Positions 1 through 37,200 of a stretch of 45,799 nt of DNA are shown here, one piece after another. The notes below the pieces were generated by a model that was not told the DNA's origin, made no database searches, and saw only the letters and a list, made by a program, of their open reading frames with translations. Origin of the DNA: Chitinophagales bacterium (GTDB lineage: Bacteria; Bacteroidota; Bacteroidia; Chitinophagales; LD1); contig JANWXI010000012.1 in assembly GCA_025057415.1 (NCBI GenBank), positions 1 through 45,799 on the forward strand. Direction: 5' to 3'. Position 1 is the first letter of the stretch. Every line of letters begins with the position of its first letter. A program made the position numbers and the translations under genes.

Positions 1-146
1 TCCGCTCCGCGCGGCTCCGCTCCGCAGCGGGGTCGGGCTTGCTACGGGGTACGCTTTCGCTCCCGCCGCGCCCGCGCATTATTTGTTTTTCAACGGGGCG
101 GGCGCGGCCGCTTCACTGCGCTCGCGCCCTACGCATCCCTCACCCG
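1..146 (+). repeat. GC-rich modular intergenic repeat, copy A (left end cut by window)
   Basis: This is one of five related GC-rich intergenic elements in the window. It shares the blocks CAGCGGGGTCGGGCTTGCTAC and, at its right end, GCATCCCTCACCCG with the other copies. Its internal module differs: arms CCGCGCCCGC (66-75) and GCGGGCGCGG (98-107) form a perfect 10-bp inverted repeat around an AT-rich loop. The left hairpin is only partly inside the window. An open frame across it is a consequence of the high GC content and is not called as a gene. Confidence 0.8.
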
Positions 147-420
147 AAACGATATAGTGTCCATATCACTTCAACTCGTCCAACCTCTGTTGCGTCACCG
201 GTTATTATTTTTTCTTCTCCGCACCCGCGCCTGCGGCGCGGACGCGCCGCAACACCGTTTCATGTATTTTACCTGATTATATATAGCTCCTGTACTTGAA
301 CTGTTAATCGTTATAGTGTTTCACTCAACCATGAGATAAATGAAAAATATGTATCAATGTTGTATTACATAAAATGAGTTAATGCTGCACAGCAAATCAG
401 CGAGACGTAGTATATGATGT
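147..420. other. Intergenic region before the porin gene
   Basis: I see no gene, RNA or clear terminator here. The first part is still fairly GC-rich and may be a degraded flank of repeat copy A. From about 270 onward it is AT-rich and probably carries the promoter of the downstream gene, but I cannot point to a convincing TAnnTTTG element. Confidence 0.4.
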
Positions 421-2412
421 GTGAGTAATTTGGGCGCGAATTCCTATAACTTTTTTGTTTTGAGGCGGCAAAGCACAAGGGTTTTGACATTCAGGTATTT
501 TTATTGTTTTCTTTTAACACTGATTGCGCTGTGGGCTCAGGCGGTACCCATCATGCAAAAAGACAGTGCACGGGCTTTGCTGCGAAAGTGGAAAAGCGAA
601 CATCCCGAGTATCCGTACGACACATGGTGTATCCGCAGCGAGCCGGAACAGCGATATGCCATTGACACCGGCCTGGTGAACCTGGAAGAGTACAACGGTA
701 TTCAACGCCCGGGCATCGAATTTACTAATGCCGGCAATATGGGTACCGCAGCGCTGCCGTTAGTATTTTCACATCCGCTTACCTGCGGGTTTCGCTCGGG
801 CTTTCATCAATTTGATGTGTACAAGATACATCGCGACTCGGTGCGCTACTACTCGGTGATGCGCCCCTACACCGAGTTGCACCTGCTGCTGGGGTTGCAA
901 AACGAACAGATGTTAGACGGTCGCTTTGCCGCACAGCACAAACAATTTTTATCGTATGGTGTACGTCTGAAACGGTACTATTCGCGCGGTCGTTACCCCA
1001 ATCAGCGCGCCAACGATAACTGTTTCAATGTATATGCAATTTACCAATCGCCCAACAACCGGTGGCGTTTGCAAGGCGATGTGGTTTTTAATGCTTTCAA
1101 AGTCAGAGAAAACGGCGGTGTAACTGCAGATGTGTTCGATACCGCAATTATACAACCCGTTCTGGCTCCCGTAGCGTTCACTTTCGCAGAAAACGTATAT
1201 CGCGAAACATCCTTTTATCTGCAAACGTCCTATGCACTTGGCAGCAAATACAGCGTGTTGGTTAACGACAGCACACGCGTACCTGTCACTTTACCTGTGT
1301 GGACACTCTCACACCGCGTTGGATTGGAGCGCCAACTGGCTTTGTGGTTTGATACGATACCCGACAAGGTTTATTACGACAACCTTTTTACGCAGAACGA
1401 TACGTTGCGCCTCGACTTTCGATTGACGAATTTTTCTAATGCGTTGCGAGCCGATTTCAGATGGCGGAGCGCCACGGTTGATACCGTGATTACAGAAAAA
1501 AACCTGATAGCAGGGGCAGAGACGGGATTTGAATATTTTATCATACGTCATAATCGCTATCCGCATCAAACTCCCAACGTGTACGTAAGTATGGATGTGC
1601 GAAGCAATGCCGCTTCGCGCTCGCGGTTGATTTATAAGGCAATGGCAAAGGCATATCTTTATGGATGGAACCGTGGCGACCTGCTCTTGAGCGCAACGGC
1701 AGGTTATATCACAGAGAGGTGGGGCATTGTGAGTTTACACACAGCCCTAACACAATCCGAAATGCCTTACATATATGAGCGTTTCCGGTCTGCCTACGTA
1801 AGCTGGACATACACCTTACCCAAAAGCACAATTTTCTCGGCTGGAGCCAAATACCATCAAGCCGCATGGGGCATTTTTGCAGAGGCATTTTATTATCGGG
1901 TGCGGAACCTGCCCGTTTATCCCGGCAGGGCAGAGCCGCAGGTGGGTTTTACAAACGAAAATTTTGCCGTGTTTCGTATCGGTAACCGGCATGCCGTAAA
2001 GGGATTGCATTTTGATAATGATGTATGGTTTACGCAGCCGTTTGACGTTTCCTCATACGACATACTGCGGCTATACACCCGCTTGTTTACGCGACACAGT
2101 TTGTACTACGAAAACCGGTTATTCAAAAAAGCGCTTTGGCTCATGGCAGGTGTGGATGTGCGGTTTCGTTATCAACACAATCCGCCGTACTACGACCCGC
2201 TACTGGCTGCATTTTATCCCGTGAGCATTCATTCGCTCCCGATACCGCAATTAGATATTTTTTTGAATGTGAAAATCAAAACCGTGCGGGCTTTTGCCAA
2301 GATAGACAATGTTGTATCGGCCATCCTCGGCAAAGGATACTATGCCTTGTACCGCTATCCTGCGCAAAATCTTTCGTTCAGGGTGGGAATAAGCTGGAGA
2401 TTCTATGAATAA
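421..2412 (+). CDS. Putative outer-membrane porin (Porin_10-like)
   Basis: A 663-residue predicted outer-membrane beta-barrel protein. After a hydrophobic export signal (about residues 20-42, ending near LWAQA) come alternating aromatic/polar strands typical of a barrel. The segment around residues 98-195 (YNGIQRPGIEFTNAGNMG, then PYTELHLLLGLQNEQ) resembles the Bacteroidota putative porin family Porin_10. The C-terminus SFRVGISWRFYE is a typical final strand. The start is uncertain: the GTG at 421 lies two codons after an in-frame stop, and TTG codons at 460 or 484 would also keep the signal. The substrate is unknown. The YjjG-like gene follows after 12 bp, so the two are probably co-transcribed. 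Confidence 0.75.
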   Translation: MSNLGANSYNFFVLRRQSTRVLTFRYFYCFLLTLIALWAQAVPIMQKDSARALLRKWKSEHPEYPYDTWCIRSEPEQRYAIDTGLVNLEEYNGIQRPGIEFTNAGNMGTAALPLVFSHPLTCGFRSGFHQFDVYKIHRDSVRYYSVMRPYTELHLLLGLQNEQMLDGRFAAQHKQFLSYGVRLKRYYSRGRYPNQRANDNCFNVYAIYQSPNNRWRLQGDVVFNAFKVRENGGVTADVFDTAIIQPVLAPVAFTFAENVYRETSFYLQTSYALGSKYSVLVNDSTRVPVTLPVWTLSHRVGLERQLALWFDTIPDKVYYDNLFTQNDTLRLDFRLTNFSNALRADFRWRSATVDTVITEKNLIAGAETGFEYFIIRHNRYPHQTPNVYVSMDVRSNAASRSRLIYKAMAKAYLYGWNRGDLLLSATAGYITERWGIVSLHTALTQSEMPYIYERFRSAYVSWTYTLPKSTIFSAGAKYHQAAWGIFAEAFYYRVRNLPVYPGRAEPQVGFTNENFAVFRIGNRHAVKGLHFDNDVWFTQPFDVSSYDILRLYTRLFTRHSLYYENRLFKKALWLMAGVDVRFRYQHNPPYYDPLLAAFYPVSIHSLPIPQLDIFLNVKIKTVRAFAKIDNVVSAILGKGYYALYRYPAQNLSFRVGISWRFYE

Positions 2413-2424
2413 TAGCTTTTACAC

Positions 2425-3120
2425 ATGAAAAAATACCATCATATATTCTTTGACTTAGACAACACGCTGTGGGATTTTGATACCAATTCAGCCCGGGCGC
2501 TGCAGATGATTTTTGAAGGCGAACAGTTACACACCAAAGGCATACCGTCGCTGGATGATTTCCGCAGGCGATATAAAGCGATTAACGACCGGTACTGGGT
2601 ACAGTATCATCACGGCCTCATCCCGAAAGAAGAGGTGCGCATCGGGCGTTTTGAAGACACCCTGAAAGCGTTTGGTATTGACGACCGAAAAATGGCAGAG
2701 CGCATGGCTGAGCGGTACGTGTGCATCAGTCCGCAGATGACTGCGTTGTTTCCGGGCGCTGCGGAAACATTGCAGTATCTTTCATCCAAATATTCCGTTC
2801 ATTTGATTACCAATGGTTTTGCGGATGTGCAACGGGTGAAAATCAAAAACTGCGGGCTGGCGGGTTACTTTGGGGAGATTATCATCAGCGAGGAGGTGGG
2901 AACCCAAAAGCCCGACCCGGAGATTTTCAGGATTGCCTTGAACCGGGTTGCCGCCACACCCGAAATATGCCTGATGATAGGCGACAACATGCACACCGAC
3001 ATTGCAGGCGCTAAAGCGGCGGGCATGGACCAGGCGCTGTTTAATCCGCTCAAAAAATTTCACCGCGAAAAGGCCACTTACATTATTCATTGTTTGGAGG
3101 AATTGCGGGAGTTTTTGTGA
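2425..3120 (+). CDS. yjjG: YjjG-family noncanonical pyrimidine nucleotidase (HAD superfamily)
   Basis: A 231-residue cytoplasmic HAD phosphatase of the YjjG type. Members dephosphorylate nucleoside 5'-monophosphates, including damaged or noncanonical pyrimidines. All HAD motifs are visible: motif I FFDLDNTLWDF with nucleophile Asp10 and acid/base Asp12, motif II Thr129 in LITNGF, motif III Lys162 in QKPDPEIF, and motif IV IGDN...D with Asp187 and Asp192. Residues 15-110 form the helical cap. Length and motif spacing match the family. It starts 12 bp after the porin gene. The exact substrate cannot be read from sequence. Confidence 0.88.
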   Translation: MKKYHHIFFDLDNTLWDFDTNSARALQMIFEGEQLHTKGIPSLDDFRRRYKAINDRYWVQYHHGLIPKEEVRIGRFEDTLKAFGIDDRKMAERMAERYVCISPQMTALFPGAAETLQYLSSKYSVHLITNGFADVQRVKIKNCGLAGYFGEIIISEEVGTQKPDPEIFRIALNRVAATPEICLMIGDNMHTDIAGAKAAGMDQALFNPLKKFHREKATYIIHCLEELREFL

Positions 3121-3208
3121 TGGCGTATGTATCTTTTGCGCATTGCTCATTTGCCCGTAGCATAGCTACTCAAAGATTACACTACTTATAAATGAAAGAA
3201 ACTTTTTA

Positions 3209-3314
3209 GTGCGGTGCGTAACGCAGTGGAGCACGGGAGCGAAGCGCACCCGGTAGCCAGCCCGACCCCGCTGTGAAGCGCAGCCCTGCGGAGCGGAGCA
3301 GCGGGGGCACCCCC
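3209..3314 (-). repeat. GC-rich modular intergenic repeat, copy B
   Basis: Read on the minus strand it starts with GGGGGTGCCCCCGCTG, as do copies C, D and E, and runs to the CTCCACTGCGTTACGCACCG block. It lacks the terminal CCTCCGCATCCCTCACCCG module. The loop of the first hairpin is longer than in C-E, because extra CCGCTCCGC-like sequence separates the CCCCGCTG and CAGCGGGG arms. It lies between two genes on the same strand and could also act as a transcription terminator. Confidence 0.8.
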
Positions 3315-3416
3315 AAAAATTTTCATCCTCACATTTCGGAAAGATTGTTATATTAAATATATTTTTTATGCGATGGAGAATAATTTTTTCGCCAGCCAAA
3401 GATTGGCGGGGGTGTT

Positions 3417-3424
3417 TATATTTG
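3417..3424 (+). promoter_or_regulatory. Bacteroidota -7 promoter element TATATTTG
   Basis: TATATTTG matches the Bacteroidota housekeeping -7 consensus TAnnTTTG. Only four bases (CCCG) separate it from the ATG at 3429, so the transcript is predicted to start at or next to the start codon. I found no good TTG at the usual -33 distance. A small hairpin-capable sequence (GCCA...TGGC) lies just upstream. Confidence 0.55.
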
Positions 3425-3428
3425 CCCG

Positions 3429-6089
3429 ATGTTGCGCTATTTGTTTTTTGTTTCGGGGTTGTTTGCTTTCTGTGCTATGCGGTTGTGTGCACAGCCGGTG
3501 AGTATTACGGGGCATACCTCTTTTCACCAGAGTGTGGTGGGGAATGAATTTGGGGCGCTGGAGAGTACGAATATACCTGACCAGGGTGGTTTTGTTACGT
3601 ATTTTATCCAAAACCAGCAAAGCCAGCCCGATACCATAACGCAGGTGAAATTTTCGGCAGGCGGAAACTTCTATCAGCCACACTATTATTTCTATCCGGT
3701 TACGTTACAGCCGAACAGTTATACCGCGCTGCTGGCAAAGATGATTAGTTATCCGTTTCGCGAGGGAGATACGCTGACTGTGGAGTTGACCACTGCTAAG
3801 GGATACACCGCTACGCAGACACACATTTTGCGCACTCCTGCGCTACGATTAGCCAACATTATTCCATCGCAGGACAGGAAGACACTTTATGTTTATCTGC
3901 GCAATGATGGCGCCACAGTTGTATCACTGCTGGAGATTTTTCTGAACGGAAACAATTACGCAATACCATCGCCTGCCGTGAACATCCTGGGTGGAAATTC
4001 TCAAATCAACGCCGGCAGTGTGGCGATAGTGAAAATAGCGCTCAATTCCCCGATGCGCGACCTGGAAAATATTTTTCTGGCAGTGAGGTATAGCGCCGGA
4101 AATACGTTACGTTGGGTGAGTACGTTTCAGCGCCTGGTGGAGCCGCGTTTCGTTTTGGGTACCTGGCACACGTCATTATTTAATCACGACAAGGAATACG
4201 GACGCAAGCGCATACGCCAGTATGCCATCACGTCGGTATTCGGCCCCTATGATTTTAATCTGATGCAGAACGCTTATGATGAATATCATCTGGAGTGTGT
4301 GCACGAGCCGAATTTTGACAGCGCGGGTACTTTTGGCGTAAGCATAGGCAGCAACTATGTGAAACAGTACGAAGGCGCTCCGTGTATGCACATGTGGTTG
4401 GTGGAAGATGAACCCGACCTGAGCAATAAACCCATCAATCAGGAAATGGCGAAAAGCATGGCGTATTGGCTCAACGACAGCAACACAGCCAGCTACATCA
4501 ACCTGGCATCGCAAAAGAAGTATCAGCGTTATGCTTTTTTTACTGACATTGTGAGTATGGACCACTATACCGATGACGGGGCGCCCAACGTGATACCGCT
4601 CAGTTGGTACACGCGCGAGGGGAGTGTACGCGAAGCGATAGAGTACACCGATGTTTTGAAATGGAACTCGGAGCCGAAGCGCATGTTCAGTTGGTGCCAA
4701 CTGGCTGCCGGCTCGTGGGGTAACCTGCAAGCAGAGGATTTTATTATAAACTTTCAATTTTGGAGCCACGTAAGCTCGGGCGCCAAAGGCATACATTTTT
4801 TTGTGGCTACACCGGATACAAAAACATCGTACCCCTCGCAGTGGGAAGAAGGGTTACGCCTGACGCGCCAACTGAACACTGTAAAAAATCTTTTCCTGTA
4901 TGGTGAGAGCTGGAAGGGTGTGCAAGTGAAAAGCGGGCAGGTGGTGACCCGTGCCACAGTGGGCGAAGACGCTATGTTGATTACCGTGATGAACAATACG
5001 ATTGATTACACACCGGTGAACATCATTCTCCACGACTGGAGCCCCTCTATCGCTCCGGCAGCATTTGAAGTTGAATTTACCGTGCCCGACTGGATACCGA
5101 TTGAACAATTTTACGAAGCCACCGAGGAAGGAAAGAAACCGCTTACCGGTATAACACATGTAAGCGGGCGCACGTATCGCATTAACGCGTCGTTGTTTAC
5201 CAAATCGCGCGTGTATGTGATAGGGAAAAACGATACTACGGCACCCGGAGCAATTACCGGTTTGGTAGTACCTGATAAAACAAGCCCTAACTCTTTTACA
5301 CTCTCATGGCGCGAACCATACGACAACGTGGGCATAAGGGGCTATTACATATATGCCGATAATCAACTGGTTGACTCGGTGCCGTATCCGATATGGGACG
5401 CCACTGAGGCGCCTGATGCCTGTGAGGTTAACGAGTGGCAGGTACGGGCGTATGATGATGCCGGAAATCTCGGCCAGGGGGCTTCGGTCAGTATTAACTG
5501 GGCGGGTATTGGAAGCGGCACACCGGTGATATACCAACATCCGCAGCCCCTGACTGTACAGGCCGGTAGCCCGGCTGTGTTTGAAGTGCGCGACTCAAGC
5601 GCCGCGGGTGTAGCATACCGTTGGCAGGCCGATACGGGCAACGGTGTATGGTTTAATTTGATAAACGACCAAACCTATTCGGGCGTTCACTCTCCGAAAC
5701 TGACTGTGCAAGCCACACAGCATCAAAACGGGCACCGCTACCGCTGCCGCCTGAAAGTGGGTTGCGACACCACAACTGTTCTTTACTCAGAGAGCGCTTT
5801 GCTGGAGGTGACAGGCACATTGCAAACATACAATGAACTAAATGAATATGATATACGGGTGTTTCCGAACCCTGCCCGGGATTACATATACATACAATTA
5901 CCCGCATATAGACACGCTACACAAGCGCTTCTGTTTGATTTGCACCAACGGATGATCGCTCAAACCAACTTTTCACCGGACGGCAATGCAGTGTTATCGC
6001 TTCATGGCATACCATCCGGCATGTACATGCTATTCACAGAACTGGACTGCCGTTACATCGGGCGGCATAAAATCGTCATTAATAAATAA
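3429..6089 (+). CDS. T9SS-secreted multidomain protein (TIM-barrel-like core, FN3, Ig-like, sorting domain)
   Basis: An 886-residue secreted protein. It has a signal peptide ending near LCAQ (residue 22) and an N-terminal beta-rich part (about 23-235). The central region (about 240-600) is rich in acidic/aromatic motifs (VEDEPDLS, VSMDHYTDDG) resembling glycoside-hydrolase-like TIM barrels, but I cannot assign a family or catalytic pair. An FN3-like domain (about 603-695) and an Ig-like domain (about 705-800) follow. The end is a T9SS type A sorting domain, with VFPNPARDYIYIQ near residue 815 and terminal HKIVINK. The stop codon overlaps the start of the acylase gene by one base (TAATG), which argues for translational coupling. 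A glycan-related role is inference. Confidence 0.7.
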   Translation: MLRYLFFVSGLFAFCAMRLCAQPVSITGHTSFHQSVVGNEFGALESTNIPDQGGFVTYFIQNQQSQPDTITQVKFSAGGNFYQPHYYFYPVTLQPNSYTALLAKMISYPFREGDTLTVELTTAKGYTATQTHILRTPALRLANIIPSQDRKTLYVYLRNDGATVVSLLEIFLNGNNYAIPSPAVNILGGNSQINAGSVAIVKIALNSPMRDLENIFLAVRYSAGNTLRWVSTFQRLVEPRFVLGTWHTSLFNHDKEYGRKRIRQYAITSVFGPYDFNLMQNAYDEYHLECVHEPNFDSAGTFGVSIGSNYVKQYEGAPCMHMWLVEDEPDLSNKPINQEMAKSMAYWLNDSNTASYINLASQKKYQRYAFFTDIVSMDHYTDDGAPNVIPLSWYTREGSVREAIEYTDVLKWNSEPKRMFSWCQLAAGSWGNLQAEDFIINFQFWSHVSSGAKGIHFFVATPDTKTSYPSQWEEGLRLTRQLNTVKNLFLYGESWKGVQVKSGQVVTRATVGEDAMLITVMNNTIDYTPVNIILHDWSPSIAPAAFEVEFTVPDWIPIEQFYEATEEGKKPLTGITHVSGRTYRINASLFTKSRVYVIGKNDTTAPGAITGLVVPDKTSPNSFTLSWREPYDNVGIRGYYIYADNQLVDSVPYPIWDATEAPDACEVNEWQVRAYDDAGNLGQGASVSINWAGIGSGTPVIYQHPQPLTVQAGSPAVFEVRDSSAAGVAYRWQADTGNGVWFNLINDQTYSGVHSPKLTVQATQHQNGHRYRCRLKVGCDTTTVLYSESALLEVTGTLQTYNELNEYDIRVFPNPARDYIYIQLPAYRHATQALLFDLHQRMIAQTNFSPDGNAVLSLHGIPSGMYMLFTELDCRYIGRHKIVINK

Positions 6090-8152
6090 TGAAAACTAAT
6101 AATGTTATCGGCAGCGCGCTGCTGTGTCTGCTCGGTATTTATGCCTGCGCACAAATCAATCCTGCCCACATCACGATAGTACGCGACAGTTTCGGAGTGC
6201 CACACATATACGGAAAAACCGATGCCGAAGCCGCCTACGGACTTGCGTATGCGCATTGCGAAGATGATTTTCTGAACATTCAATACAATCTGTTAGCTGC
6301 CAAAGGTATGTTGGCTCGCGCTATCGGTAAAGAGGGGCTGTTGTTTGATTTTGCAATAAAATTTTTCGGCATAGATACATTGGTAGAAAACCGTTACGAA
6401 CTCGCCATATCGCCCGACTTCCGGAAAGTGCTGGAAGGATACATTCAGGGGGTGAACGACTATGCCGCCCGGCATCCCGAAGAAGTGGTGCTGCGCGAGG
6501 CGCTGCCTTTCAGCGCCCTTGAACTCATCAAGGGCTCTACTCTCACACTCACGCTTTTTGCCGGAGGAGGCATGGCGCTGCAAGCTATCAGAGAAAATGT
6601 TATTGAACTGGTGCATCAACCCAACGAAACAGGGTCTAACGCACTTGCCGTGGCCCCATCTAAAACCGATGACGGAAAAGCGTGGCTGCTCGTTAACTCG
6701 CATCAACCGATTGAGGGGCGATACGCCTGGTACGAGGCACATATCCGCAGCGATGAGGGTTGGGATGTAATTGGTGGGTTATTTCCGGGCGGAGCTACCA
6801 TCTTTCTGGGCACCAACCGCCACCTCGGCTGGGCGCACACCACCAACTATCACACATTTGGCGACATATACAAACTCAGGCGAAAAGGCAGGCGTTACCT
6901 GTATGACGGTGAGTGGAAAAATTTTACCGTTAAAAAGGTGAAGTTGCATGTAAAAATCGCTGGCATAATAGTGGGTATCACACGCAAGATTTTCTACAGC
7001 GTGCACGGTCCGGTTTTCAAAAACAAGCGCGCATGGTATGCGCTGCGTTTTCCGGGCGCTATGGACATACGCAGCATGGAGCAGTGGTACCGCATGAATA
7101 AAGCGCGGAGTTTTCAGGAATTTGAACAAGCCCTGCGCATGGAGGCGCTACCGCTCTTCAACATCGTGTATGCGGATGTGGAGGGGAACATTTTTTACCA
7201 GAGTGGTTGTCAGGTGCCGCTGCGCGATACTACCCTGAACTGGAACCAACCGGTTGACGGCACCTCACCGGCTTACCTGTGGAATAAATTAGTACCATAC
7301 CAACAAAAACCGGCGCTATACAATCCCGCGTGTGGCTATCTGTACAGTTGTAATCAAACCCAGTACTTCGTGAGCGGAAAAGGTTGCGAATGGAAAGGAT
7401 ACTGGCCGGGCATTCAACTTTTTAATTACAACCGCGGTGAGGTTTTCGGTGAACAACTTGCCGCTATATCCGGTAAAATTTCGTGGCAGGATGTGCTGCG
7501 AATAAAATTTGATAAGAGCTACGCCAAAAACGGTAGCTATGCGCGCAATTTCAGCGCTTTGTTTCGCCTTGACGAAAAGAAATACCCCGATATTGCCGAC
7601 GTAATCCGCAAATTAAAACAATGGAACCTGCGCGGTGATGTAAACAACCGCGAAGCGCCTGTGGCGATGATTTTGCACGAGCATCTTCGCAAGGCGTGGA
7701 AGGTGCCCTTTGCTTTTTTAATGATAAAACGCCAACCACTCACCGAAAGTGATTTAGTGCCGCACCTGCGCGCCACAAAGCGGTTCATGTTAGATAAATA
7801 CGGCACTACCGATGTGGCGCTCGGTGACATACAGCGCATGATACGCGGCAACAAGAGCTACCCGGCAAGTGGCTTGCGCGAAGTACCGCGTGCTGCCGAC
7901 CCGAAACTGTACGACAAAACACACGGTATTTGGCGTATTACCGGAGGTGACGGTTACATGCAATTAAACAAATACAGCGCCGCAGGCGTTGAAGTATTTT
8001 CTGTAAGCCCATACGGGGCATCTAACCGCCCCGAGAGCCCTCATTACAACGACCAGATGGAACTTTTTGCACAGGAAAAATTTAAACGCATGACCTTCGA
8101 TTGGAACGAAATTCTTAAAAAAGCAGAACGCGTTTACAATCCGGTACAATAA
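6089..8152 (+). CDS. Penicillin acylase family protein (Ntn hydrolase)
   Basis: A 687-residue exported member of the penicillin amidase/acylase family, which cleaves amide bonds in beta-lactams, acyl-homoserine lactones or related amides. A signal peptide (about 1-21) precedes a chain beginning VRDSFGVPHIYGKTDAEAAYG, typical of the family alpha subunit. The predicted self-processing site and N-terminal nucleophile is Ser183 in ETGSNALAV. Downstream, NSHQP (203-207) and GWAHTTNY (247-254) fit the beta-chain oxyanion and Asn region. It overlaps the upstream gene by one base. The substrate cannot be inferred; a periplasmic role in scavenging or quorum-signal degradation is possible. Confidence 0.85.
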   Translation: MKTNNVIGSALLCLLGIYACAQINPAHITIVRDSFGVPHIYGKTDAEAAYGLAYAHCEDDFLNIQYNLLAAKGMLARAIGKEGLLFDFAIKFFGIDTLVENRYELAISPDFRKVLEGYIQGVNDYAARHPEEVVLREALPFSALELIKGSTLTLTLFAGGGMALQAIRENVIELVHQPNETGSNALAVAPSKTDDGKAWLLVNSHQPIEGRYAWYEAHIRSDEGWDVIGGLFPGGATIFLGTNRHLGWAHTTNYHTFGDIYKLRRKGRRYLYDGEWKNFTVKKVKLHVKIAGIIVGITRKIFYSVHGPVFKNKRAWYALRFPGAMDIRSMEQWYRMNKARSFQEFEQALRMEALPLFNIVYADVEGNIFYQSGCQVPLRDTTLNWNQPVDGTSPAYLWNKLVPYQQKPALYNPACGYLYSCNQTQYFVSGKGCEWKGYWPGIQLFNYNRGEVFGEQLAAISGKISWQDVLRIKFDKSYAKNGSYARNFSALFRLDEKKYPDIADVIRKLKQWNLRGDVNNREAPVAMILHEHLRKAWKVPFAFLMIKRQPLTESDLVPHLRATKRFMLDKYGTTDVALGDIQRMIRGNKSYPASGLREVPRAADPKLYDKTHGIWRITGGDGYMQLNKYSAAGVEVFSVSPYGASNRPESPHYNDQMELFAQEKFKRMTFDWNEILKKAERVYNPVQ

Positions 8153-31928: not shown

Positions 31929-34277
31929 TTAGTGTTTAACAATAATCTTACGCAGGGTTTGATTGCTATGGCGAATTTCCAGTATGTACTGCGCCGGGGC
32001 AAGGCGACCCAACTGTAAAACGTTGCTGCCTCTCATCAAATCTATATGCATCATATCCCTGCCGTAAATATCAAATATCACTGCGGTCAGTTCTGTATCG
32101 GTAATAACATATAGTGTTTCGCTAAATGGATTAGGATACAAGCTAACCGATACGGGTAATGCTTCGGTCAAATCAGTTACGATAACATTAAACTGTGCAG
32201 AAGAAACACACTGGTTAGCGTCTGTGACGGTTACGTTATACAAACCCGGTGGCAGGTTGCTGAGGTCTTGCGTAGTAGCCCCATTGCTCCAGTTATAGGT
32301 GTAAGGTGATGTGCCTCCGCTCACGCTAATATCTATCGCGCCGTTTGAGCCGGAGGAAGGCGTAATGTTTACCGCATTGATTTGTATGGGCGCAGGCGGA
32401 TTGTTCACGGTTACCGATGCAGAAGCTGTACAACCGTTTTGATCAGCAACGGTTAAACTCACATTGCCGCCGTTAGAAAACGAAACTGTACCGTTATAAC
32501 CGTTGCTCCAGGAATAGTTTATTGTACCCGTACCACCAGTAGCGATGGCGGTTAGCGTAGCAGTATCATCATGGCACTTAATGGGAGTGACTTGTATCGG
32601 TTGCAGGATTAGTGGTGCAGGTTCAGGCACAATGTAGGTTTTGATTAGTTGGCAATTATCATTATCCGTGATGGTTAAACTGTACGTACCACCGCAAATT
32701 TGCGTAAGGTTACTGCTGGTACTGCCGGTATTCCATGAGAAAGTGTAAGGTGCGGTTCCGTTGATGGGCGTCACGATAATTGCTCCGGTGCATACGCCAC
32801 CACAGGTGGGCGGAATGATTATAGAAGTGTCTGTAAATCCCGTTGAGGAAAATGCGTTGGCAGTTGCAATGGACGTACATCCGTTTGCATCCGTTACGGT
32901 GTATTGGTATGTGCCCGGCGTGGATAATGTATAGTTGCCGGTACCGCTGTAAGGTGGTGTGCCTCCTGTGGCAGTCACAGAAACAGTACCGCTGCCTCCG
33001 GTGCAAGGTAGCGTGATGTTGGTGGCGCTCGCAACTAACGGTGCAGGTTGTGTAACGTTTACCGATACACTGGCAGCACAACCATTCGCGTCAGTTACAG
33101 TGTAACTGTAAGTACCTGCGGTAACACTGAAATTATTCGGTGCAATGTTGTACGGAGGTGTTCCGCCGTTTGCGTTGATTTGGATGGTGGTTGTACCTCC
33201 GTTGCAAAGTATGGGCGGGAAATTCGCATTTGCACTCAACGGAGCGGGCTGATTTACCTGAAACGATGCCGATGCTGTGCAACCGTTATTGTCTTGAACC
33301 AGCAAGGTGTATGAGCCGGCTGTAAGGTTGCTTACGTTAGAGGTGCCGGCGCCATGGCTCCAGGAGTATGAGTATGGCGGGTTACCGTTATTAACCGTAG
33401 TGATGATAGCGCCGTTGTTTCCACCGTTGCAACTCACATTCGTAACGTTGCCCGTAATACTCACTGGTGCAGAGGGCTGCGTAATGTCAAACGATGCGCT
33501 GGCTGTTTGGGATGATTGATCGGTTACTGTTACAGTGTATATGCCAGCAGTAAGGTTAGAGCGGTCCTCTGTAGTAACTCCGTCATTCCACAGATAAGAG
33601 TAGTTAGGAGTACCACCCGTTACCGTTATATTTATGGAACCGTTGTTGCCGCCAAAGCACGTAACGTTTGTCTTTACTCCCGATATACTGAGCGGTGTGA
33701 GTTCAATGAGTGTAATAGAAGCAACACCGGAGTTATCTCCGCTGGTTCCGGAGGCGCCATTCACGGCATTGCCGGCTGCATAAAAACGCACCGTACCCGT
33801 GCCTGCAGGCGGCGCTGTCCAGCGGAAATTGAAAACGTTGTTGTTTGTTACACCATTGTGCTCTACATAAGTTCTGCCGGTGTATGTACCGGTGGTGATG
33901 GTTTTCTGCTTCACGTTCGAGGCAAGGTTTGAATACGAACCTGCGGGACTATTGCCCGGCGTAGTTAGGCAGGTCATTTGAAAACCAAAACCGGCGGGCG
34001 ACCCTGAGGTGTGATTAACCGTTACACGCATATCATAAGTAGTGCCGCCCACATAACTGGTCACAGGTGTATTAGTGCCTACCTGAAACACCTGAATACT
34101 CAGGGTAACCTGACCAAAGGCGCCACCTGAGTGGCAGTTGCCGCAAACCCCGGCTGAACCGGGCGAACCGGTGCGGTCACTGTTGCCAACGGTGGCAATC
34201 CCGCCGCTGTTAGAACTAAACAGAAACCAAACCGATGCAACAGAAAAGAGCAAATAGACAACGTGTAATTTCCTCAT
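31929..34277 (-). CDS. T9SS-sorted surface protein with CxxCH anchor-type domain and SprB repeats
   Basis: A 782-residue secreted protein. After the signal (about 1-25) comes a domain containing a single CxxCH motif (Cys45, Cys48, His49 in VCGNCHS), like the choice-of-anchor V domain family. It is followed by a chain of about seven SprB-type repeats (about 195-690), each with CxGGNNG, GTPPYSYSW and a TVTDxxGC-like end. The C-terminal LYPNPFSETLYVIT...LRKIIVKH is a T9SS type A sorting domain. SprB-repeat proteins include gliding adhesins, but gliding genes are not in the window. The CxxCH could bind heme or simply be structural. Confidence 0.85.
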   Translation of the reverse strand: MRKLHVVYLLFSVASVWFLFSSNSGGIATVGNSDRTGSPGSAGVCGNCHSGGAFGQVTLSIQVFQVGTNTPVTSYVGGTTYDMRVTVNHTSGSPAGFGFQMTCLTTPGNSPAGSYSNLASNVKQKTITTGTYTGRTYVEHNGVTNNNVFNFRWTAPPAGTGTVRFYAAGNAVNGASGTSGDNSGVASITLIELTPLSISGVKTNVTCFGGNNGSINITVTGGTPNYSYLWNDGVTTEDRSNLTAGIYTVTVTDQSSQTASASFDITQPSAPVSITGNVTNVSCNGGNNGAIITTVNNGNPPYSYSWSHGAGTSNVSNLTAGSYTLLVQDNNGCTASASFQVNQPAPLSANANFPPILCNGGTTTIQINANGGTPPYNIAPNNFSVTAGTYSYTVTDANGCAASVSVNVTQPAPLVASATNITLPCTGGSGTVSVTATGGTPPYSGTGNYTLSTPGTYQYTVTDANGCTSIATANAFSSTGFTDTSIIIPPTCGGVCTGAIIVTPINGTAPYTFSWNTGSTSSNLTQICGGTYSLTITDNDNCQLIKTYIVPEPAPLILQPIQVTPIKCHDDTATLTAIATGGTGTINYSWSNGYNGTVSFSNGGNVSLTVADQNGCTASASVTVNNPPAPIQINAVNITPSSGSNGAIDISVSGGTSPYTYNWSNGATTQDLSNLPPGLYNVTVTDANQCVSSAQFNVIVTDLTEALPVSVSLYPNPFSETLYVITDTELTAVIFDIYGRDMMHIDLMRGSNVLQLGRLAPAQYILEIRHSNQTLRKIIVKH
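32200..33700 (-). repeat. SprB-type protein repeat array
   Basis: About seven tandem repeats of roughly 70 residues are encoded here, each with the GGNNG-type turn, the GTPPY strand and a T(V/I)TDxxGC-like end. Repeats differ in sequence, so recombination between them would be less frequent than in exact arrays. Boundaries are approximate. Confidence 0.7.
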
Positions 34278-35810: not shown

Positions 35811-35959
35811 AAATACCTTAATACAACATCCTCGCTTCCCGTTGTGCATGCACGGCAAACACACGTCCGCTTCTCGGCATTCAAGCAACCGAGCCGCCAA
35901 TCATCTTCCCTTTCTGCCGTCTTTCATGCATATCTATTAAATAAAATTACAATTTTACA

Positions 35960-35999
35960 ACCCTGCATTTTTAAAATAAAATTTTAAATTTGCAGGGTT
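35960..35999. repeat. 40-bp imperfect palindrome, left flank of ATPase gene
   Basis: Starts ACCCTGCATTTTTAAA and ends TTGCAGGGTT, so the outer arms ACCCTGCA/TGCAGGGT are perfectly inverted. The inner part is AT-rich and nearly palindromic. Its right end touches the ATG at 36000, and it contains the predicted promoter -7 element TAAATTTG. It matches the sequence at 37161-37200 in 37 of 40 positions. Confidence 0.85.
35985..35992 (+). promoter_or_regulatory. -7 promoter element TAAATTTG inside palindrome
   Basis: Matches TAnnTTTG. Seven bases separate it from the ATG at 36000, predicting a very short or absent leader. The -33 position has CTG 19 bp upstream, not the usual TTG. Confidence 0.5.
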
Positions 36000-37157
36000 A
36001 TGTTTACCCGATTACTGGAAAAAGAACTGGTGCGGTTATTACGCCATTTCCCTGCCGTTGCCTTGCTCGGGGCGCGGCAGGTAGGCAAAACAACCCTCGC
36101 CCGCACGCTGTTAAAAAAATTTCGCAAGTCCGTGTACCTCGACATGGAAGATGTTGACGACCACCGGGCGCTCTCTAACCCAAGATTATTTTTTGACTCC
36201 TACCGCGACCATCTTATCGTCATTGATGAAATACAGCGCACTCCCGAGTTGTTTCCGGCTTTACGCTCCGAGATAGACCGGCAGCGCAAACCGGGAAGGT
36301 ACCTGCTGCTTGGCTCCGCCTCACCCGATTTGCTCCAAAAAAGCTCTGAAACCCTGGCCGGGCGAATTGTTTACAAAGAACTAAGTCCTTTGCTGCTCTC
36401 CGAAGTATCTGCAAAAATTGATTACCGCACGCACTGGCTGCGCGGTGGTTTTCCGGATGCTATTCGCCAGCGTACGGCGGCGTTATGGAATGTTTGGCAC
36501 AGCGCTTTTTTGCGCACATACGTAGAGCGCGACCTGCCTATGCTCGGTTTACCTACACCTTCACACACGCTCACGCGCTTACTACAAATGATAGCTTACA
36601 ACCACGGGCAAATACTCAACAAAAGCGAATATGCTCACGCGCTGGGCGTATCGGTACCCACCGTGAGCCAAATGCTCGATTATCTGATGCACGCTTACCT
36701 CATTCGTCTTTTACCTCCTTATGCCAATAGCCCCAAAAAGCGCATTGTGCGTTCGCCCAAACTGTACGTGCGCGATAGCGGTATGCTGCATCACCTACTG
36801 GGCATCACACACCACAAAAACCTTCTTAACAACCCAAAGGTGTGCTACTCCTGGGAGGGCTACGTTATCGAGCAAATCATACAACACGCCGGCGCAGAAA
36901 AAAATTATTTCTACTACCGTACGCAAGACGGTGCCGGGTGCGACCTGGTGATTGCTCACTACAACAAACCTCAAACCGTTGTAGAAATAAAACTGAACCC
37001 TTCAGCGCCCGTTATGAAGGGACTGCGTAACAGCATGGAAGATTTACGGATTAAAAAGGCCTTCGTTGTGGTGCCGGGTACCGATGTCCATTACGCCATT
37101 GACAGGCGCATACAAGTCGTTTCTTTAAGTATTTGGTTAGAAAAATATACCCGTTAA
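36000..37157 (+). CDS. AAA_14/DUF4143 ATPase
   Basis: A 385-residue ATPase of the AAA_14 plus DUF4143 type. Walker A is GARQVGKTT (24-32) and Walker B is LIVIDEIQ (72-79). LLLGSASPDLLQKSSETLAGR follows as the sensor region. The C-terminal DUF4143 part includes the LNKSEYAHALGVSVPTVSQML HTH-like segment and a PD-(D/E)XK-like end (YRTQDGAGCDLVI then VVEIKLN). The biological role of the family is not established. The gene sits exactly between two near-identical 40-bp palindromes, so it looks like a discrete inserted unit. Sequence composition is similar to its neighbours. Confidence 0.88.
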   Translation: MFTRLLEKELVRLLRHFPAVALLGARQVGKTTLARTLLKKFRKSVYLDMEDVDDHRALSNPRLFFDSYRDHLIVIDEIQRTPELFPALRSEIDRQRKPGRYLLLGSASPDLLQKSSETLAGRIVYKELSPLLLSEVSAKIDYRTHWLRGGFPDAIRQRTAALWNVWHSAFLRTYVERDLPMLGLPTPSHTLTRLLQMIAYNHGQILNKSEYAHALGVSVPTVSQMLDYLMHAYLIRLLPPYANSPKKRIVRSPKLYVRDSGMLHHLLGITHHKNLLNNPKVCYSWEGYVIEQIIQHAGAEKNYFYYRTQDGAGCDLVIAHYNKPQTVVEIKLNPSAPVMKGLRNSMEDLRIKKAFVVVPGTDVHYAIDRRIQVVSLSIWLEKYTR

Positions 37158-37160
37158 TTT

Positions 37161-37200
37161 ACCCTGCATTTTTAAAGTTAAATTTTAAAATTGCAGGGTT
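37161..37200. repeat. 40-bp imperfect palindrome, right flank of ATPase gene
   Basis: Same orientation and length as the left copy (35960-35999), differing at three positions. It starts 3 bp after the stop codon. Its -7-like octamer (TAAAATTG) has lost the TTTG match, so it is not an obvious promoter. It may act as a terminator hairpin or as the other end of a mobile unit. Confidence 0.85.

Follow-up and report, generated by a model that had tools for sequence, protein, structure and literature searches.

Does a gene that lies exactly between two near-identical palindromes form one unit with them, and are the gene and its palindromes gained and lost together? The question is raised by a locus in the window, the whole 45,799-nucleotide stretch of Chitinophagales DNA that was analyzed here. 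A gene on the + strand (positions 36000 to 37157, with ATG at 36000 and a TAA stop at 37155-37157) codes for a protein of 385 aa that contains an AAA_14 domain, a winged-helix region, and a DUF4143 domain with a predicted PD-(D/E)XK nuclease fold, and that corresponds to PADLOC PDC-S01. An imperfect palindrome of 41 bp, AACCCTGCATTTTTAAAATAAAATTTTAAATTTGCAGGGTT (35959 to 35999, no strand assigned), abuts the start codon, and a direct copy of it, ACCCTGCATTTTTAAAGTTAAATTTTAAAATTGCAGGGTT (37161 to 37200, also without strand), begins three bases past the stop codon. The two differ at three positions over 40 bp in direct orientation, and are 91% identical over 46 nt. An earlier note on this DNA had described 40-bp copies with three differences, the gene exactly between them, and a -7 element within the left copy. 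Coordinates and alignment agree with the first two statements, and the element, TAAATTTG, is present. It is a -7-like motif of the Bacteroidota type, for which the consensus is TAnnTTTG. Because this motif lies within the left copy, the left palindrome would be mostly untranscribed, and we infer a DNA element, not an RNA one. Folding of each palindrome yields a hairpin of ~-20 kcal/mol (z ~-6), and no T-run or intrinsic terminator was found at the right one. In the whole genome of 3.2 Mb, the pattern ACCCTGCA-N18-26-TGCAGGGT has just two matches, which are the two palindromes of this locus. A large gene near the cassette (window positions 31929-34277) encodes five SprB repeats and a type IX secretion sorting domain.

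By all available tests, the gene belongs to the PDC-S01, or AAA_14-DUF4143, family. Pfam recognized AAA_14 (1.3e-26) and DUF4143 (4.4e-35) in the protein, both above the Pfam cut-offs, and the PADLOC models of PDC-S01 matched it with an E value of 9.6e-86. A named genome-wide search with the protein as the query recovered only four relatives. No domain of any known transposase was found in it by Pfam; a Y1 (HUH) transposase in particular is absent, the only Pfam families in the flanked gene being AAA and DUF4143. An AlphaFold model for which 64 aligned relatives served as input had a pLDDT of 95.1 and a pTM of 0.93. The nearest folds are two archaeal Walker ATPases, 2qen from Pyrococcus (Z 17.4) and 2fna (SSO1545; Z 16.1), followed by STAND/NLR-type ATPases. 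The likeness to 2qen and 2fna extends over residues 1-268 only (AAA+ plus winged helix) and leaves the C-terminal nuclease domain uncovered. In the model, that domain consists of a helix (281-297), three strands (302-307, 313-320, and 323-330), a second helix (340-349), and a final strand (353-358). Residues G24, G29, K30, D76, E77, E329, and K331 are invariant in alignment A2 and D315 is conserved in >90% of sequences, so that the Walker A, Walker B, and nuclease residues are intact. The near-invariance of D315 and the invariance of E329 and K331 are what a PD-(D/E)XK nuclease would be expected to show, and the C-terminal domain is read accordingly as a putative nuclease of this type. PMC12988326 likewise describes PDC-S01 as an ATPase fused to PD-(D/E)XK.

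Ninety-three DUF4143 loci of the same order were compared with 113 neighboring control ORFs that were processed alike. Matching palindromic repeats stood on both sides of 16 DUF4143 loci and of none of the controls (16/93 vs 0/113), and a strong upstream palindrome was present at 35/93 and 6/113, respectively. A chance origin of the flanking palindromes is ruled out by the control ORFs. The score of the upstream/downstream repeat was far higher for pairs taken from the same gene than for pairs swapped between genes, and further DUF4143 genes in the window's genome and genus also lie between palindromes, of other sequence. The earlier note had expected similar flanks at other DUF4143 genes and had named their absence from all such loci as the contrary case; with 16 of 93 loci paired, the contrary case clearly does not hold and the expectation does, although the sequence of the palindrome is specific to locus and clade. 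Among the 93 loci, upstream-only palindromes are common and matching downstream-only palindromes nearly absent, so two ends are not required. The palindrome lies over or beside the start of the gene, and a second one past the stop codon is a trait of part of the Bacteroidota.

In the protein tree, the palindrome arms mostly track the clades. Arms with CCCTGCA are common to the window, L127, L009, and L033 (AACCCTGCA or ACCCTGCA), GGACAA is found in L007 and L014, CTTTACAAAT in L012 and L023, and CCTTGAAA in L074 and L086. The exception is L062, which has CCCTGCA-like arms and lies elsewhere in the tree; paired palindromes are missing throughout one clade of 21 proteins. Other layouts were also encountered. 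Two ACCCTGCA-class palindromes lie 99 bp apart upstream of one DUF4143 gene at L124 (positions 1501-1640; G030:C104), with none downstream. At L045, tandem arrays of ~20-22 bp units (ACCTTGAAAAATGAACACTAT) take the place of the single palindrome on either side of the gene, and short repeat units also occur upstream of L064, L071, and L073.

Plasmid-borne relatives from Agrobacterium, Acidithiobacillus, Spirosoma, Roseobacter, Moraxella, and Runella have an upstream palindrome, which reaches the ATG or comes close to it in Agrobacterium, Acidithiobacillus, Roseobacter, Moraxella, and Runella; no second copy was seen at the relatives of these six genera. The plasmid PDC-S01 gene at L471 adjoins repB/repC (Roseobacter litoralis) and the one at L139 lies near parA/parB (Acidithiobacillus caldus), and PDC-S01 may perhaps be linked to plasmid maintenance there. 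Neither of the two examined copies from Thermus has the upstream palindrome, and no flanking palindrome was found at several plasmid sites of Thermus strains with gene copies and 3' relics. On plasmid 4 of T. thermophilus TTHNAR1 (L474, positions 1-7352), an ISTth7 transposase and an IS630 gene flank the DUF4143 gene, an argonaute gene is ~2.5 kb away from it, and truncated 3' relics of the DUF4143 gene recur on pVV8-type Thermus plasmids (L478-L480). Carriage by viruses was considered and rejected: palindrome scans of 2.9 million viral contigs found no palindrome beside a DUF4143 gene and only one weak match to the family, and phage records yielded six matches, all of them distant.

Comparison within a genus was possible for seven loci, one genome being sampled per species, so that the polarity of gain versus loss is uncertain at each. 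At three of them, relatives without the gene retain one palindrome. Locus E is occupied in G044 and has one palindrome in G056, with flanks that are 81% and 72% identical. Locus D is occupied in G100, has one palindrome each in G078, G109, and G069 and none in G090 and G105, and has a hairpin directly beside the palindrome that is common to G100 and G109. Locus A is occupied in G053, and a single, partly decayed palindrome remains in the short gap between the flanks in G064 and G127. At these three loci, the right boundary coincides with the palindrome. At the other four, the palindrome is missing from gene-less relatives, and the differing DNA continues past the palindromes by ~20 to >200 nt or by a whole PIN gene. 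Locus B is occupied in G100 and empty in G090, G078, and G105. Locus C, beside a tetR gene, is occupied in G017 and in the window's genome G000, which falls outside the other genomes compared, and empty in G006, G015, G016, and G014. Locus F, beside murA and with the window's own class of palindrome, is occupied in G017 and empty in G015, G006, and G005. Locus G, at an MCM/mutase gene and again with the window's class, is occupied in G105, where the additional DNA includes a PIN-domain gene. It was rejected as a clean boundary case, its congeners having another neighbor at this place and G105 the added PIN-domain gene.

Gene and palindromes thus behave as a unit of gain and loss, occurring or missing jointly when congeneric species are compared. 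The solitary copies that the earlier note had expected to mark empty sites do so in six relatives that lack the gene, spread over three loci; its further expectation, that relatives lacking the block keep one palindrome, stood at loci A, D, and E and failed at B, C, F, and G. At none of the seven loci does an insertion have both of its limits exactly at the palindromes while the matching site of a relative is palindrome-free. For the window copy, the comparison yielded no empty site; the downstream photolyase-related gene has other neighbors in G002 and G013. Palindromes of the same sequence family also stand alone at unrelated places, within the order (L112 and L114) and elsewhere in the phylum (L401 and L404), and L114 shares 37 identical nt, on opposite strands, with L116 from a different family. 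Matches to the palindrome pattern number zero to three per genome. G056, G078, and G005 have solitary palindromes, and at E 1e-15 none of the three has a DUF4143 match.

Left, right, and solitary copies have diverged from one another. Compensatory changes were seen at 5 of the 27 changed pair positions (one uncompensated position among the 27 comes from the mis-trimmed row of L006), indicating that pairing was partly kept. The asymmetric center of the palindrome has the same orientation in some pairs of copies and the opposite one in others. The two copies in the window match better in the direct sense (4 vs 7 differences over 41 nt), whereas the inverted sense fits better in L012 (0 vs 3 differences), in L027 (1 vs 4), and in two comparisons at locus D. 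In L012, L027, and L054/L380, the center is flipped between copies in a flip/flop-like manner, and the L012 copies are perfectly inverted. Compensatory changes and flipped centers together hint at processing of a hairpin or cruciform.

The explanation that we prefer, with confidence about evenly balanced, is that the block is a single-gene cassette, in which an AAA+/winged-helix/PD-(D/E)XK nuclease gene is accompanied by its own cognate palindrome, its product acts on these palindromes, and its loss leaves a palindrome as a scar. The protein would recognize and bind its palindrome through the winged helix, and the upstream copy, with its -7-like motif, may be a promoter or operator. Both copies could be acted on by the ATPase-nuclease or could recombine as ordinary repeats do, and loss of the gene between them would leave a solitary palindrome. 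Gain would occur by horizontal transfer, at times with extra flanking DNA. Against this reading stand the four loci at which the differing DNA exceeds the palindromes, the common upstream-only layout, the 21-protein clade and the Thermus members without paired palindromes, and the lack of an empty site for the window copy. It is plausible that the unit is mobile, self-contained, and hairpin-ended, and the palindrome scars argue for a palindrome-bounded unit. Such a scar needs no special enzyme, because deletion between identical palindromes was documented for IS605-type elements and PATEs of Haloquadratum (PMC3119063).

The same deletions of the core (PMC3119063) would also suit a rather unlikely alternative: that the window contains an ordinary, horizontally transferred accessory or defense gene with an upstream palindrome that is an operator only and a downstream one that is a 3' hairpin copy, the solitary palindromes being by-products of general repeat-mediated deletion and the protein having no role in gain or loss. 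The frequent upstream-only and infrequent downstream-only layout, the overlap of palindrome and promoter motif, the extra flanking DNA that accompanies gains, and the discovery of the family by defense-gene embedding, as reported in PMC12988326, are all in keeping with it. What it leaves poorly explained is a downstream copy that has no T-run and resembles the upstream copy far more than termination needs, and the occurrence of near-identical solitary palindromes at unrelated loci of other families (the 37 nt of L114/L116).

An autonomous transposable element, whose AAA+/PD-(D/E)XK protein excises and inserts palindrome, gene, and palindrome together and whose terminal-only relics are the solitary palindromes, appears quite unlikely. 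A patchy occurrence, with as many as nine members of the family in one genome, presence or absence that is specific to the locus, end sequences specific to each clade, and flipped palindrome centers, as hairpin processing could produce, would all be understandable on such a basis. Yet no insertion ends exactly at both palindromes against a palindrome-free site, a near-identical multi-copy family within one genome was not seen, many members lack the second palindrome, and Pfam found no known transposase domain. In addition, gains with extra flanking DNA argue against a clean transposon.

IS605-type elements encode the Y1 transposase TnpA, and their excision leaves no palindrome. In REPtrons, the gene of a RAYT, itself a Y1 protein, is flanked by REP palindromes, with solitary palindromes elsewhere and REPs dispersed in large numbers. 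The window cassette shares with REPtrons a palindrome-flanked gene and solitary palindromes, but its palindromes are low-copy (zero to three per genome) and its gene contains no Y1 domain. It differs from IS200/IS605 elements in having an AAA+/PD-(D/E)XK protein in place of Y1 TnpA. As for empty sites, which would be palindrome-free in IS200/IS605, a palindrome is kept here at three loci and absent at four. Lacking a Y1 transposase in its flanked gene and having palindromes in low copy number, the cassette lies outside both systems; it is somewhat like an IS605 element or a REPtron in its working and a member of neither. There is a likeness of form to IS200/IS605-type elements and to the PATEs of Haloquadratum (PMC3119063), which have palindromes close to their termini, the two being identical in some cases, and in which deletion between the palindromes leaves one of them, as at the solitary sites described here.

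A homing-like or site-specific integration, in which a circular or allelic copy integrates at a solitary palindrome and so becomes flanked by two, would account for the three loci where relatives have one palindrome and the gene sits between two, but is very improbable, given that relatives at four loci have no palindrome and that the occupied allele, if the palindrome is the site, keeps both palindromes intact around the gene and hence is still a target, unlike a homing endonuclease gene, whose insertion destroys the recognition site.

The single-gene cassette that we prefer bears on a family that is widely counted. PDC-S01, a phage-defense candidate in PADLOC-DB, was discovered through its embedding among defense genes and ranked the fourth commonest 'defense' in prokaryotes, according to PMC12988326, and in rumen genomes it is reportedly the single locus met most often (PMC13356809). 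The passages of PMC12988326 that were covered mention neither flanking palindromes nor empty sites, whereas the window PDC-S01 gene resembles a gain/loss cassette bearing palindromes; among open-licence papers on DUF4143, AAA_14, DUF234, and palindromes, none describes palindromes at this gene family. A cognate palindrome across phyla is a concrete candidate for the DNA substrate of PDC-S01. Solitary palindromes at gene-less sites make the gain and loss of PDC-S01 traceable, and could reveal whether a large proportion of the prokaryotic 'immune' genes that have been counted are really selfish cassettes. It is possible, though unlikely, that at least in Bacteroidota the family is a selfish palindrome-ended mobile element, with an AAA+/winged-helix/PD-(D/E)XK protein that would recognize, cut, and move its own palindromes by machinery unrelated to known transposase folds. 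If that is true, the spread of such an element would explain the presence of the family inside defense loci.
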